NCBI GenBank assembly: GCA_016180705.1
Contig: JACPAU010000131.1
Span: 1-10,881 of the forward strand
From: Candidatus Methylomirabilota bacterium
Lineage (GTDB): Bacteria; Methylomirabilota; Methylomirabilia; Methylomirabilales; JACPAU01
Length of the DNA: 10,881 nucleotides
Direction: 5' to 3'
Positions within the stretch are counted from its first letter, which is position 1; the number at the start of each line of letters is the position of its first letter. Made by a program: the position numbers and the translations under genes. Positions 4,229 through 10,025 of this stretch are shown here, in pieces. Below the pieces are notes generated by a model. The model did not search any database and was not told where the DNA came from. It was given only the letters and a program-made list of their open reading frames with translations.

Positions 4229-4555
4229 TCACAGCATGCCCAGTTCCAGCTTCGCCGCCTCGGACATCCGGCTCGGGTCCCAGGGCGGCTCCCACACCAC
4301 GTCCACCTGCACGTCCGTCACGCCGGGGACGGCCTGGACCTTGTCCCGCACCTCGCCCGGCAGGGAGCCGGCCGCCGGGCAGTTGGGCGAGGTGAGGGTC
4401 ATCCGGACGCCCACCGCCCCGGAAGGTTCCACCTTGACCTCGTAGATGAGGCCGAGCTCGTAGATGTTCACGGGGATCTCCGGATCGTAGCAGGTCCGGA
4501 GGACCTCGAGCACCTGGGCCTCCAGGTGCGCGCTGTTCATGTTCGTGATGTCCAT
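4229..4555 (-). CDS. sufT: MIP18/DUF59-family Fe-S assembly protein (SufT-like)
   Basis: This 108-residue protein consists of one MIP18 (DUF59) domain. It shows YDPEIPVNIYELGLIYEV (23-40), LTSPNCPAAGSLP (54-66) with the conserved cysteine C59, and the C-terminal VVWEPPWDPSRMSEAAKLELG (86-106) characteristic of the SUF-associated subgroup. Family members help mature Fe-S proteins, and the conserved cysteine is thought to contribute to cluster handling. The start at 4555 has GGAG 5 nt upstream; a second ATG at 4540 lacks a comparable site. It is the last gene of the SUF operon, 25 nt after sufU, which supports a role in cluster assembly or transfer. PaaD, the phenylacetate relative, is excluded by the context. 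Confidence 0.9.
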   Translation of the reverse strand: MDITNMNSAHLEAQVLEVLRTCYDPEIPVNIYELGLIYEVKVEPSGAVGVRMTLTSPNCPAAGSLPGEVRDKVQAVPGVTDVQVDVVWEPPWDPSRMSEAAKLELGML

Positions 4556-4580: not shown

Positions 4581-5033
4581 CTATTCCGTGGAAACCTTCT
4601 GCCCCTTCCCCTCCAATGCCGCCCGCAGGGTGTGCCAGGGGAGCGTCGCGCACTTGACCCGGATGGGGAACTCCCGCACCCCGGAAAAGGCCGCCAGCTT
4701 CCCGAGCGCGCGCGGGTCCCCGGCCGCCTCCCTCTCCGTGGTAACCATCTTGTGGAAGGCGTGGAAGAGGTCCTCGGCTTCTGCCCGCGTCTTGCCCTTC
4801 ACGCTGCTCGTCATCAGGGAGGCTGCCGCCCGGGAGATCGCACAGCCCGAGCCCTGAAAGCCGATGTCGCCGATCACGTCGTCCTGGATCTGGACGTAGA
4901 GGGTGATCTGGTCGCCGCACAGCGGGTTGTGGCCCTCCGCCGTCCGGTTCGCCCCCTCGAGCCGGCGAAAGTTGCGCGGGTTCTTGTTGTGGTCGAGGAT
5001 CACCTGCTGGTAGAGCTCGCGGAGGTCCGACAT
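4581..5033 (-). CDS. sufU: SufU, zinc-dependent sulfurtransferase partner of SufS
   Basis: This 150-residue NifU/IscU-fold protein is of the SufU type. C39 and D41 in NPLCGD, C64 in GSGCAISRAA and C128 in RVKCATLPWHT match in spacing the three cysteines and aspartate that bind zinc in B. subtilis SufU. The roughly 20-residue segment between the second and third cysteines that separates SufU from scaffold IscU is present. SufU accepts persulfide sulfur from SufS and passes it to the assembly complex. Its ATG shares one base with the sufS stop (TGATG), so translation is probably coupled. No sufE gene is present, consistent with the SufS-SufU pairing. Confidence 0.94.
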   Translation of the reverse strand: MSDLRELYQQVILDHNKNPRNFRRLEGANRTAEGHNPLCGDQITLYVQIQDDVIGDIGFQGSGCAISRAAASLMTSSVKGKTRAEAEDLFHAFHKMVTTEREAAGDPRALGKLAAFSGVREFPIRVKCATLPWHTLRAALEGKGQKVSTE

Positions 5034-6304
5034 CAGGCGAACGTCTCCCGGACCTTGTGGAGCCCCGCCACGAGGGCATCGATCTCCGCCCGGGTGTTGT
5101 AGAAGGCCAGGGACGCCCGGGCGGTGGCCGGCACGCCGAACCGCTGGAGCACCGGCTGGGCGCAGTGATGGCCCGTCCGGATCGCGATGCCCTCCTGGTC
5201 GAGGATGGTGCCGACGTCGTGCGCGTGGACGCCCTTCACCACGAAGGAGAGGATCCCCGTCTTCTCCTTCGCCGTGCCGATGAGGCGGATCCCCGGGACC
5301 GCGCCCACGCGCTCCGTCGCGTAGGCCAGCAACCCGTGCTCGTACGCGGCGATCCGTTCCAGGCCGATGCCGGTCAGGTACCCGATCGCGGCGCCGAGGC
5401 CGATGCCGCCGGCGATGTGCGGGGTCCCGGCCTCGAACTTGAACGGGATCACGTTGTAGAGGGTCTTCTCGAAGCTCACCGAGAGGATCATGTCCCCGCC
5501 GCCCTGGTACGGCGGCATGGCCTCGAGAAGGGGGGCCTTGCCGTACAGGACGCCGATCCCGGTGGGGCCGTAGGCCTTGTGCCCCGAGAAGGCGTAGAAA
5601 TCGCAGTCCAGCGCGCGGACGTCCACAGGAAGGCGGGGCGCCGCCTGGGCCCCGTCCAGGAGGACGGGGACGCCGCGGCCGTGGGCCAGCTCGACGATCC
5701 GCCGGACCGGGGTGATGGTCCCGAGCGCGTTCGAGACGTGGACCATCGCGACGAACCTCGTCCGGGGGCCCAGCAGCCGCTCGTACTCCTCCAGGACCAG
5801 CTCCCCCGCGTCGTTGATCGGCACGACGCGCAAAACCGCCCCCGTCTGCTCGCAGACGATCTGCCAGGGGACGATGTTGGAGTGGTGCTCCATGGCGGAG
5901 ATCACGACCTCGTCCCCCGGCTGCAGGCGCGGCCGGGCGTAGCTCTGGGCCACCAGGTTGACCGCTTCGGTCGTGCTGCGGACGAAGACGATCTCCCGGG
6001 GCTCGGCGGCGTTCAGGAAGCGGGCCACCGCGGCCCGCGCCCCTTCGTAGGCCTCCGTCGCCCGCTCGCTCAGGTAGTGGATCCCCCGGTGGATGTTGGC
6101 GTTCTCCGCCCGGTAGTACCGGGTGAGGGTGTCGATCACCACCTGCGGCTTCTGGCTGGTGGCGGCGTTGTCGAGGTAGACGAGGGGCTTCCCGTGGGCC
6201 CGCTCCCGGAGGATCGGGAAGTCCTGGCGGACCCGCTCCACGTCGAACGGGATGGCTGGATCCTGGCGGACTGTCTCTGCGATGGGATGGCCGATGGTGG
6301 TCAT
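5033..6304 (-). CDS. sufS: SufS cysteine desulfurase
   Basis: This 423-residue PLP enzyme removes sulfur from cysteine, leaving alanine and an enzyme persulfide. Visible landmarks are YLDNAATSQKP (43-53), EHHSNIVPW (139-147), D217 in LLDGAQ for the PLP ring nitrogen, the Schiff-base lysine K243 in SGHKAYGPTG, and the catalytic cysteine C381 in RTGHHCAQP on the short loop typical of group II desulfurases. I start at 6304 because its ATG overlaps the sufD stop by 4 nt (ATGA) and GGAGG lies 7 nt upstream; the frame is open for another 71 codons but only inside sufD. It acts with SufU, encoded immediately downstream. Confidence 0.96.
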   Translation of the reverse strand: MTTIGHPIAETVRQDPAIPFDVERVRQDFPILRERAHGKPLVYLDNAATSQKPQVVIDTLTRYYRAENANIHRGIHYLSERATEAYEGARAAVARFLNAAEPREIVFVRSTTEAVNLVAQSYARPRLQPGDEVVISAMEHHSNIVPWQIVCEQTGAVLRVVPINDAGELVLEEYERLLGPRTRFVAMVHVSNALGTITPVRRIVELAHGRGVPVLLDGAQAAPRLPVDVRALDCDFYAFSGHKAYGPTGIGVLYGKAPLLEAMPPYQGGGDMILSVSFEKTLYNVIPFKFEAGTPHIAGGIGLGAAIGYLTGIGLERIAAYEHGLLAYATERVGAVPGIRLIGTAKEKTGILSFVVKGVHAHDVGTILDQEGIAIRTGHHCAQPVLQRFGVPATARASLAFYNTRAEIDALVAGLHKVRETFA

Positions 6305-7644
6305 CGGGCGTCCTCCAACACGTCTCCGTGGGGCAGCCACCGTCTCACGAGCCTTTCGAGGTGCTCGCGGATCGGCTCGACCTTCATCCGCTGCAGGCTC
6401 TCGCCGGCGAAGGCAAAGAGGAGGAGCGCGCGGGCCGCGGCCTCGGCGATGCCGCGCGAGCGCAGGTAAAAGATCGCCTCCGGGTTGATCTGGCCGATGG
6501 TCGCCCCGTGGGTGCACTTCACGTCGTCGGCGTAGATCTCGAGCTGTGGCTTGGTGTCGATCTGCGCCTGCTCCGAGAGGAGCAGGTTCCGGTTGGTCTG
6601 CTTGGCGTCGGTCTTCTGGGCACCCTTGTGGACGATGATCCGCCCGTGGAAGACGCCCCGGGACTGGCCGTCCAGGATGCCGTGGTAGAACTGGCGGCTG
6701 CCGCAGTGCGGGCCCATGTGCTCGACCTTCATGTAGTTGTCCATGTGCTGGCGGCCGGTCGCCAGGTACAGCCCGTTGACCAGGCAGTCGCCCCCCTCCC
6801 CGGCCAGGACCGGGTGGACGTTGTTCCGCACCAGCGCGCCGCCCAGCAGCACCGTGTGGGAGGCGACGCTGCTGCTCCGCCCCTGCTGGCTCCGGAGGGT
6901 CGAGACGTTGAACGCCTGCCGGCCCTCCCGCTCGATCAGGTAGTGGCTCACCACGGCGCTCTCCCCGACCACCAGCTCCGTGACCACGTTCGAGAAGGCC
7001 ACGCCCTCTCCGAGCGAGACGTAGTCCTCCACGATCGTCGCCTGGCTGTCCTCGTCCGCCACGAGCAGGTTGCGCGGGTGGGTCACGAGCGGTACCTTCG
7101 CCCCCGTGGAGACGTACAGGAGGTGGATCGGGGCCTCGACGACCTGCCCCCGGGGGATGCGGACGAACGCCCCGTCCGCCAGGAACGCGGTGTTGAGGGC
7201 GGAGAAGGCGTCGTGGTGGTAGTCGGCGTACCGGGTCAGGTGCGGCTCGAGCAGGCCTCGGTCGGCACGCAGCGCTTCGGCGAGGCTGCCGACCCTCACG
7301 CCCGCCGGGAGGGATCCCGGGGCGGACAGCCCGGGGACATAGCGGCCGTTCACGAAGACGAGCCGGTGGCAGGCGATGCCCGCGAAGGCGAAGGGCGTCA
7401 GCGCCTCCGGCCCCGGCACCGCCCCCCCCTCCCCGGCGAGGCGGAAGGCAGTCCCGGCGATCGGGGCCACGTTGGTGAACCGCCAGTCCTCGTCGCGGGG
7501 CGTCGGGAACCCCAGGTCGGCAAAACGGGCGATCGCCGCCCGGCGGATCGGGTGGAGCCAGGCCCCGCCGTCCCCGGCGGTCGCCTTCTCGAACTGCGCG
7601 AAGGCCTCCAGGTACAGGTTCGTCTGCTGCGCCACCGCGTTCAC
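6301..7644 (-). CDS. sufD: SufD, subunit of the SufBC2D Fe-S scaffold
   Basis: This 447-residue protein starts with GTG at 7644, with GGAGGAG 8 nt upstream. The N-terminal helical part carries RDEDWRFTN (50-58). The middle is the right-handed beta-helix core, and the C-terminal region contains VEHMGPHCGSRQFYHGIL (307-324), QTNRNLLLSEQAQIDTKP (359-376) and YADDVKCTHGATIGQ (371-385). The LEIYADDVKCTHGA block identifies SufD rather than its paralogue SufB, which has HEATVSK-type residues at that place. SufD normally pairs with SufB and a SufC dimer and is needed for iron entry. Here its usual partner gene is only a remnant upstream of sufC. The gap to sufC is 17 nt. Confidence 0.95.
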   Translation of the reverse strand: MNAVAQQTNLYLEAFAQFEKATAGDGGAWLHPIRRAAIARFADLGFPTPRDEDWRFTNVAPIAGTAFRLAGEGGAVPGPEALTPFAFAGIACHRLVFVNGRYVPGLSAPGSLPAGVRVGSLAEALRADRGLLEPHLTRYADYHHDAFSALNTAFLADGAFVRIPRGQVVEAPIHLLYVSTGAKVPLVTHPRNLLVADEDSQATIVEDYVSLGEGVAFSNVVTELVVGESAVVSHYLIEREGRQAFNVSTLRSQQGRSSSVASHTVLLGGALVRNNVHPVLAGEGGDCLVNGLYLATGRQHMDNYMKVEHMGPHCGSRQFYHGILDGQSRGVFHGRIIVHKGAQKTDAKQTNRNLLLSEQAQIDTKPQLEIYADDVKCTHGATIGQINPEAIFYLRSRGIAEAAARALLLFAFAGESLQRMKVEPIREHLERLVRRWLPHGDVLEDAR

Positions 7645-7661: not shown

Positions 7662-8432
<771 letters not shown>

Positions 8433-8476: not shown

Positions 8477-8658
8477 CCCGACGCTCCCTTTCAGGCTGAC
8501 GCTGAGGCGCCTCCGGGCCTCCACCGCGAACTTCCTGGGCGGTTCCCGGAGGACCCGCTTACAGAAGCCGTTCAGGATGGGGTTGGCCGCGTCCTCCTTA
8601 ACTCAGCCTCCGCTCGAGGCAGGATGAGGAATTGCTCCTCCCCGACTTTGTCGACCGT
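8477..8658 (-). pseudogene. sufB: sufB remnant (C-terminal about 60 codons, frameshifted)
   Basis: Translating the minus strand upstream of sufC gives two collinear pieces of the SufB C-terminus. From 8658 to 8620 one frame reads TVDKVGEEQFLIL, matching the TVSKIGEEQLFYL block of SufB. From about 8599 to 8477 the next frame reads KEDAANPILNGFCK, then KFAVEARRRLSVSLKGSVG, matching the family tail EEDA...IVNGFCK...EFAVEA..LL...L.GSVG known from E. coli and cyanobacterial SufB. Between them lie a frameshift and a TGA (8603-8605). The distance from EEQ to EDA is 53 nt against about 51 expected, so the two pieces are homologous across the break. Most of the roughly 480-residue protein is absent: upstream at 8775 NDH-2 begins. 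After GSVG, where SufB normally ends, there is a CAG codon rather than a stop. The family comparison is from memory. Confidence 0.82.
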
Positions 8659-8774
8659 TTTAGTATACTATCACGCCAGCTCCACGGCCGTCCAGCGCGG
8701 CTGCGTGGGCCGCCCCGATCCGCCCTGCCGGGCGGCCAGCGACCTCGTCGACGGCCGCCGCCCCCGGTTGGCCC
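8659..8774. other. Spacer between NDH-2 stop and sufB remnant
   Basis: Only the AT-rich patch around 8656-8673 stands out, including the perfect palindrome TAGTATACTA (8661-8670). The rest is GC-rich and shows no gene, no recognisable further sufB sequence and no terminator with a T tract. The deletion that removed most of sufB must have its junction in or near this stretch. Confidence 0.5.
8665..8694 (-). promoter_or_regulatory. Candidate promoter for sufCDSUT inside the sufB junction
   Basis: On the minus strand TGGACG (8689-8694, four of six consensus) lies 18 bp before TAGTAT (8665-8670, four of six), which is preceded by TGA and so could act as an extended -10. Transcription would start near 8658 and carry a leader of about 226 nt containing the sufB remnant. 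The TAGTATACTA palindrome overlapping the -10 could be an operator. No match to a known IscR, SufR or Fur site is claimed. Read-through from the NDH-2 gene is the alternative. Confidence 0.3.
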
Positions 8775-10025
8775 TCACCACTCCAACCTGGCGAGATCCC
8801 GGGGGAAAAAGGCGGCGATGACCCAGTCCAGGGCGACGCGCACCCGATTCTTCCACCCGATCAACTTGGCGAGGAAGACCGACCGCCACAGGAGCCAGGC
8901 CGGCAGGCCGGAGAAGGCCAGCCCGGCGATCTCCCCCACCCCGTCCCCCGTCCCGAGTGAGACCAGGTCCCCCTGGTGGCGGTAGCGGAAGGGCTCCTTG
9001 GGCTTCCCCTGGAGCTCCCGCGCGATGTTCCGGGCGACCGCGCGGGCTTGCTGGACGGCCACCTGGCCCGTCGGCGGCAGGGGCGCCTGGAGTCCCGGAT
9101 CCCAACAGTGCGCGGCATCCCCGATGGCGAACACGCCCGGGAAGGGCGGGACCTGGAGGTGCTCGTCCACCACCACGCGGCCGAGCTTGTCCCGCTCCAC
9201 CGGGAGGGCCTCCACGACCGGATTCGCCTTCACCCCGGCCGTCCAGATCACGGTGGCGGTCGGGAGCACCTCCGCGTCGCCCAGCTCGACCCCCTCGTCG
9301 CGCACCGCCACCGCCGGCGCCTGCAGGCGGACCTCGATCCCCTTGGCCCGGAGCTTCTCCAGACCCAGGGCGGCGAGGCGGTCGCTCACGCAGGGGATGA
9401 CGCGCTGGGTGGCCTCGAGGATCACGACCCGCCCCTCCCCCGGATCAACCCGCGGGTAGGAGCGGGCCAGCGGGCCGCGGATCAGGTCCCAGAGTTCGGT
9501 CGCCAGCTCCACCCCCGTGCAGCCGGCTCCCACCAGGACGAAGGTGAGCAGCCGCCGGCGCCGCTCCGGATCCCGTTCCAGGTCGGCCTGCTCGTACATT
9601 TCCAGGAGGTGATTCCGAAGCCGGACCGCGTCGTGGAGGCTCTTGAAGCTGAACGCCTTCTCCGCCGCCCCGCGGGCGCCGAAGTAGTTCGTCGTGCTTC
9701 CCAGGGCGATCACCAGGGAGTCGTACGCCGCCTCCCCCCGGTCGGTCAGGACCCGCCGGCGGTCCAGCGCGATGGACCGCACCGCCCGCCGCTCGAAGGT
9801 CAGGGGCCGGCGCCGCCGGATGGAGCGGATCGGCCAGACCACGTGGCGGGGCTCGACGCTCCCCGACGTGACCTCGTGGAGCAGGGGGGAGAACAGGTGG
9901 AAGTTCCGCGCGTCGAGGAGGACGATCTCCACCCCCTCCTCCCGCCGGAGCCGCCGCGTGAGCTCCAGGGCCGTGAAGAGCCCGCCGAAGCCCGCCCCGA
10001 GGATGAGGATGCGATGCCCGCTCAT
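8775..10025 (-). CDS. ndh: Type II NADH:quinone oxidoreductase (NDH-2)
   Basis: This 416-residue flavoprotein has two Rossmann folds: the FAD-binding ILGAGFGG (8-15) near the N-terminus and an NADH-binding VLVGAGCTGVELATEL (163-178). WTAGV (261-265) and FAIGDAAHC (309-317) are the usual FAD contacts, and GQVAVQQA (330-337) matches the conserved quinone-site A/GQxAxQQ motif. The C-terminal 45 residues contain tryptophan- and arginine-rich amphipathic helices (about LLWRSVFLAKLIGWKNRVRVALD) typical of the membrane-binding tail. It should pass electrons from NADH to membrane quinone without pumping protons. The ATG has GGAGG 4 nt upstream. The glycine-rich NADH loop has cysteine where proline is common. 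The gene is transcribed toward the sufB remnant and divergently from the gene pair beginning at 10195. Confidence 0.92.
   Translation of the reverse strand: MSGHRILILGAGFGGLFTALELTRRLRREEGVEIVLLDARNFHLFSPLLHEVTSGSVEPRHVVWPIRSIRRRRPLTFERRAVRSIALDRRRVLTDRGEAAYDSLVIALGSTTNYFGARGAAEKAFSFKSLHDAVRLRNHLLEMYEQADLERDPERRRRLLTFVLVGAGCTGVELATELWDLIRGPLARSYPRVDPGEGRVVILEATQRVIPCVSDRLAALGLEKLRAKGIEVRLQAPAVAVRDEGVELGDAEVLPTATVIWTAGVKANPVVEALPVERDKLGRVVVDEHLQVPPFPGVFAIGDAAHCWDPGLQAPLPPTGQVAVQQARAVARNIARELQGKPKEPFRYRHQGDLVSLGTGDGVGEIAGLAFSGLPAWLLWRSVFLAKLIGWKNRVRVALDWVIAAFFPRDLARLEW

Follow-up and report, generated by a model that had tools for sequence, protein, structure and literature searches.

The stretch of DNA analysed here, which we call the window, is an entire 10,881-nucleotide contig (G000:C285) from a draft genome of a Candidatus Methylomirabilota bacterium, a bin that is 63.9% complete and consists of 302 contigs. 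On its minus strand lie, in this order, an NDH-2-like gene (8775..10025), a space of 342 bases without an intact gene, and a SUF operon composed of sufC, sufD, sufS, sufU and sufT. The name NDH-2 is the label of an earlier note on this DNA and is presumed here; the gene reaches the cut-off of no NCBIfam model, the best being a pyridine nucleotide-disulfide oxidoreductase family at 110 of 310 bits. It is also the upstream neighbour in the genomes G002, G006 and G010. The five suf genes are all intact and all score over the cut-off of their models: sufC (7662..8432; TIGR01978, 367.3 bits, cut-off 212.8), sufD (6301..7644; TIGR01981, 286 bits, cut-off 222), a sufS-type cysteine desulfurase (5033..6304; TIGR01979, 592.4 bits, cut-off 475.1), sufU (4581..5033; TIGR01994, 169.4 bits, cut-off 92.5) and sufT, a DUF59 protein (4229..4555; TIGR02945, 148.5 bits, cut-off 143.4). 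SufB, SufC and SufD act as one complex. The operon holds the sufC ATPase, sufD, the cysteine desulfurase and SufU of a SUF system, and of sufB it holds a 3′ relic only. The SufS protein also scores 701.3 bits against a model for the family 2A encapsulin cargo cysteine desulfurase (cut-off 800), more than its 592.4 bits on the sufS model TIGR01979.

The sufB relic occupies positions 8478..8653 of the minus strand and represents roughly the last 58 of some 485 codons, with a net frameshift, an in-frame TGA and a lost stop codon. Aligned as DNA with 26 sufB tails, which were collected by script and include that of the congener G003, it scored 75, while the maximum in 1000 first-order Markov shuffles was 17; the best four tails share 128-129 identities with it over 172-175 aligned bases, or about 74% identity with the nearest related tails. 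The SufB profile TIGR01980 also matches, weakly (8510-8614, minus strand; E 0.0155, 14 bits), covering model positions 412-446 of 448 with one TGA inside, and the DNA alignment is by far the stronger evidence. One frame of the relic reads VKEDAANPILNGFCKRVLREPPRKFAVEARRRLSVSLKGSVG (within positions 8608-8477 of the window), in which the end of the SufB protein is legible over 42 residues and which aligns, with a score of 147, to positions 473-516 of the open frame containing SufB in G006 (516 residues). The preceding stretch, DKVGEEQF, sits in a different frame, a TGA stands immediately upstream of VKED, and CAG occupies the position of the stop codon. By alignment, the relic begins downstream of Cys405 and Glu434 in E. 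coli SufB numbering, which the consulted part of PMC6006206 gives as two critical residues of the E. coli protein; SufB residues are also named in the consulted part of PMC5571166. The earlier note had recognised a SufB C-terminus here in two frames, with a frameshift and a TGA, and had made this reading depend on a significant SufB match. The alignment, the profile and the reading of the frames all bear it out, and only the start of the decayed tail needs correction, from 8667 to about 8653.

A second relic, which escaped the earlier note, lies at 8660..8767 on the minus strand and begins 7 bases past the NDH-2 stop codon. It consists of the last 35 codons and the TAA stop of an mrp/apbC gene, found by alignment to the mrp gene of the congener G002 (score 37, against a maximum of 24 in 1000 shuffles). 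The intact neighbour in G002 is itself ApbC/Mrp-like, with 314.9 bits on NF008669, below the cut-off of 348. Two adjacent genes, mrp and sufB, are thus both without their 5′ parts and have both retained their tails. In the protein searches, a 562-residue SufB (P0062) is preceded by a PF01883 (DUF59) domain and an Mrp-like N-terminal piece, and looks as if, in another lineage, an mrp before sufB had lost its middle.

The genes that follow the relics show no such decay. Within the genus, dN/dS is 0.17 for sufC (one pair, to G002), 0.21-0.24 for sufS, 0.17-0.23 for sufU and 0.09-0.15 for sufT (three pairs each), and is highest for sufD, at 0.26-0.39 (three pairs; 0.33 to G002 and 0.39 to G001). 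All five are intact and under purifying selection, as the earlier note had supposed of their intactness, and the range of 0.09-0.39 contradicts one of the three options it had offered, that the locus is decaying. That the entire SUF locus is on its way out while another system takes over is highly unlikely: two neighbouring genes are indeed already fossils, but the five downstream genes are selected, and the only NifU_N protein of G002, a bin 96% complete, is its SufU, and G000 and G001, both partial bins, likewise have none besides SufU.

To place the relics, we compared gene order across 60 genomes, the window's own (G000) and 59 relatives. TIGR01980 finds a match in 34 of them and exceeds its cut-off in 24; the profile also matches sufD below cut-off, and the 34 include genomes that match through sufD alone. 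Requiring at least 55% identity of sufC left 32 loci, spread over the window's genome and 29 relatives (30 genomes in all), and set aside partial or distant rows, among them G016:C123, with 82 residues and one TAG, and G025:C92, at 37% identity. The 3′ end of sufB lies directly upstream of sufC in 29 of the 32 loci, in 27 genomes, with gaps of 29-343 nt, some of these sufB genes being cut at their 5′ side by a contig end. Looking to relatives, as the earlier note advised, places sufB immediately ahead of sufC in 27 of 29 that have a comparable sufC. Three loci depart from this: the window, with its relic, and G002 and G053, with no sufB upstream. With homology to sufB, a broken and truncated frame, and a position that sufB holds in 29 of 32 loci, the stretch has the marks of a pseudogene, and it is confirmed that a decayed sufB C-terminus stands at the site where relatives have sufB. 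Two genomes, G015 (C7, C12) and G032 (C76, C25), have two suf loci each. On the 3.7 kb contig G053:C328 (L230, 322-3649), sufC, sufS and sufU occur without sufB or sufD, behind a regulator that we take to be Rrf2-like; G053 is a bin of the same class as the window's, 95% complete, in which TIGR01980 finds nothing at E values up to 1, and the contig may be contamination of the bin. Two bins of the window's order, G004 and G005 (94% and 92% complete, 1.7-1.8 Mb), lack both a close SufC and any match to sufB or sufD.

In family f4 (G006, G010) the order is NDH-2, sufB, sufC; in G007 an mrp whose product shares 191 of 347 residues with the Mrp of G002 lies ahead of sufB; and in G002 the order is NDH-2, mrp, sufC, with 81 bases separating mrp and sufC. 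Those 81 bases hold no trace of sufB (best alignment 10, shuffle maximum 13), so that the absence of sufB from the SUF locus, which the earlier note had ascribed to this DNA, is common to the window and G002. Pieced together across genomes, these orders point to NDH-2, mrp, sufB, sufC-D-S-U-T as the probable order of the genus ancestor, and the relics of the window fit it.

The same comparison bears on whether the relic is an artefact, whether of an intact sufB collapsed in assembly or of a chimeric contig. The window does come from a draft bin of modest completeness, and sufB frequently sits at contig ends in these bins. Yet collapse cannot produce a relic whose frames are broken and which differs from the G003 tail by 8 nonsynonymous and 8 synonymous changes, and G002 independently shows NDH-2 ahead of sufC and no sufB separating them; we give this explanation very little credence. 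Just as little goes to the idea that the stretch was kept for a new role, whether as a leader RNA, a promoter region or a short peptide serving sufC. The 342-base space must carry or pass transcription, but its frames are broken and the relic has no counterpart in G002. There is also no Rfam match in the stretch ahead of sufC, and no promoter-like or terminator-like site in the 342 bases by a scan for the sigma-70 consensus only.

Is sufB missing from the cell as well as from the operon? Searches of the G000 contigs with TIGR01980 and PF01458 returned only sufD and the relic from this 63.9% complete bin, and no sufB was found anywhere in the 96% complete G002. The congener G003 (bin 95% complete, 9% contamination) gave a different answer. 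Its contig C362 carries iscS, erpA, nuoB and then 50 residues of a SufB N-terminus running to the contig end, and one end of its contig C34 carries the last 32 residues and stop codon of a SufB, with korA and korB next to it. The product of erpA, at 116.3, stays just under the ErpA cut-off of 117 and clears the family model TIGR00049. Since the outgroups G009 and G006 have erpA, nuoB and korA without sufB at this junction, we read the two ends as an insertion; they fit a single sufB placed between nuoB and korA, its middle unassembled, and would then belong to one full-length gene. The tail is constrained, with nonsynonymous divergence of 0.013-0.054 against synonymous divergence of 0.32-0.69 in seven comparisons, and the N-terminal piece is more variable (0.11-0.25 and 0.35-0.70, respectively). 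Among all 26 tails, that of G003 is also the nearest to the relic of the window (82 of 98 bases), ahead of G025 (76 of 97) and G015 (75 of 95), a kinship for which 98 bases are a short basis.

The history of this region in G003 may be more complicated. As the korA protein is only 38-42% identical to the outgroup korA proteins, transfer may have reshaped the nuoB-korA stretch, with sufB a foreign copy, and korAB may have been replaced together with the arrival of sufB. Between G003 and G009, whose korA genes stand at the same place (L064 5555-7384 and L098 3642-5435), identity is about 40% for korA, in contrast to 84% for nuoB and 69% for iscS. In a scan of the genome collection for the G003 korA (JAKEHP010000098.1, isolate PMV_7_maxbin.006), the best 80 of 158 relatives had G003 itself at 100% and the next matches at 49-50%, a list from which near records may be missing and G002 is absent. 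Protein searches with the SufB of family f4 and with P0105, each reporting the best 120 of 8000 scored candidates, gave 136 distinct listed matches, none of which exceeds 40 of 50 identities to the G003 N-terminus.

It follows from the contig breaks that the corresponding site is missing from the assemblies of G002 and G000: in G002, contig C116 stops 130 nt past iscS and C32 opens inside korA, and in G000, C243 ends within korA. The four genomes analysed from the genus are all draft bins, each in 240-620 contigs. By manual count, a contig end interrupts sufB in 10 of the 34 genomes that TIGR01980 matches (G003, G007, G013, G016, G019, G022, G028, G030, G032 and G033), which marks it as a gene that assemblers tend to break. 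The 95% complete bin of G003, for its part, lacks sufC, sufD, a SUF-type sufT and any NifU_N protein, as well as orthologues of NDH-2 and of the HlyD-like neighbour. Because cells with such enzymes need Fe-S clusters, we infer that the assemblies of G002 and G003 are each missing pieces.

These observations weigh on the view that sufB is truly gone from the genus and that SufC, SufD, SufS and SufU make clusters on SufU or on SufC2D2 as scaffold. The absence of sufB from G000 and from G002 at 96% completeness speaks for it, as do the purifying selection on sufC, D, S, U and T and the existence of SufC2D2 as a complex in E. coli, described in the consulted part of PMC6006206, where that complex is nevertheless judged probably without physiological significance. 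Against it stand the two sufB ends of G003 with their constrained tail, the unassembled nuoB-korA site in G002 and G000, the frequency with which contig ends cut sufB, and SufD itself. In alignments to SufD and SufB chains, the SufD of the window keeps Cys-Thr-His at E. coli positions 358-360, with the His360 region, and carries Asn at the place of SufB Cys405 and Gly at that of Glu434. It is an ordinary SufD without counterparts of those residues; we rejected it as a substitute, and nothing in its sequence suggests that it replaces SufB. The earlier note's option of a SufD working with another scaffold is weakened accordingly, SufU being the sole NifU_N protein of G002. We consider a true loss of sufB unlikely, and we are more doubtful of the version in which SufC, SufD and SufU build the clusters without SufB and the G003 sufB is foreign or contaminating.

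We instead favour, with a probability of roughly 80%, the reading that sufB was relocated within this uncultured Methylomirabilota genus and left fossils at the SUF operon. The weak point is that no full-length sufB turned up in any genome of the genus, the G003 ends amounting to 50 and 32 residues at two contig ends in a bin with 9% contamination, and that in no single genome of the four are the moved sufB and the SUF operon seen together. The earlier claim that the operon has lost sufB thus holds for the SUF locus, and for the cell the loss is probably only local; its option of a separate sufB is the best supported of the three, on partial ends in a congener and with no second copy in G000. 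Under relocation, the genus ancestor would have carried NDH-2, mrp, sufB, sufC, sufD, sufS, sufU and sufT in that order, and a copy of sufB would have been inserted between nuoB and korA of the iscS-erpA-nuoB-korAB operon. Once the new copy worked, the old one would have become dispensable and been lost separately: in the species of the window, mrp and sufB would each have lost their 5′ side until only the final 35 and 58 codons were left, the sufB piece gaining frameshifts, and in G002 sufB would have gone and mrp been retained. The species of the window would itself have the nuoB-korA copy. SufB supplied by the new site would combine with the SufC and SufD that the SUF operon still makes, giving an ordinary SufBC2D scaffold that SufS and SufU would feed.

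The sufBCDSU-type operons of relatives in the same order resemble the window in their genes, in their order from sufC on and in their upstream neighbours; they differ in that sufB is a fossil in the window and that a congener has its sufB ends in another operon. Plastid-coded sufB is a known case of SufB encoded apart from its partners. It resembles the proposed case in that SufB is made from a place other than theirs, but there the two places are organelle and nucleus, and here both would lie in one bacterial genome. The minimal SMS and SufB2C2 systems, as far as the consulted parts of PMC12442378, PMC12584684 and PMC12192291 describe them, likewise have a SUF-type scaffold of fewer subunits, but they keep SufB without SufD, whereas the operon of the window keeps SufD without SufB. 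In the open-licence literature we found no description of a bacterial sufB relocated or absent in this way; PMC8038749 was set aside as a precedent, the phrase 'located elsewhere' in its consulted part referring to iscS2. If sufB has moved beside iscS, erpA, nuoB and korAB, linkage of sufB to sufC would not be required, and the relocation would put the supply of the scaffold next to genes for Fe-S-rich enzymes. The case also counsels caution: where a metagenome bin lacks an essential gene, that gene may have been relocated to a site that is hard to assemble.
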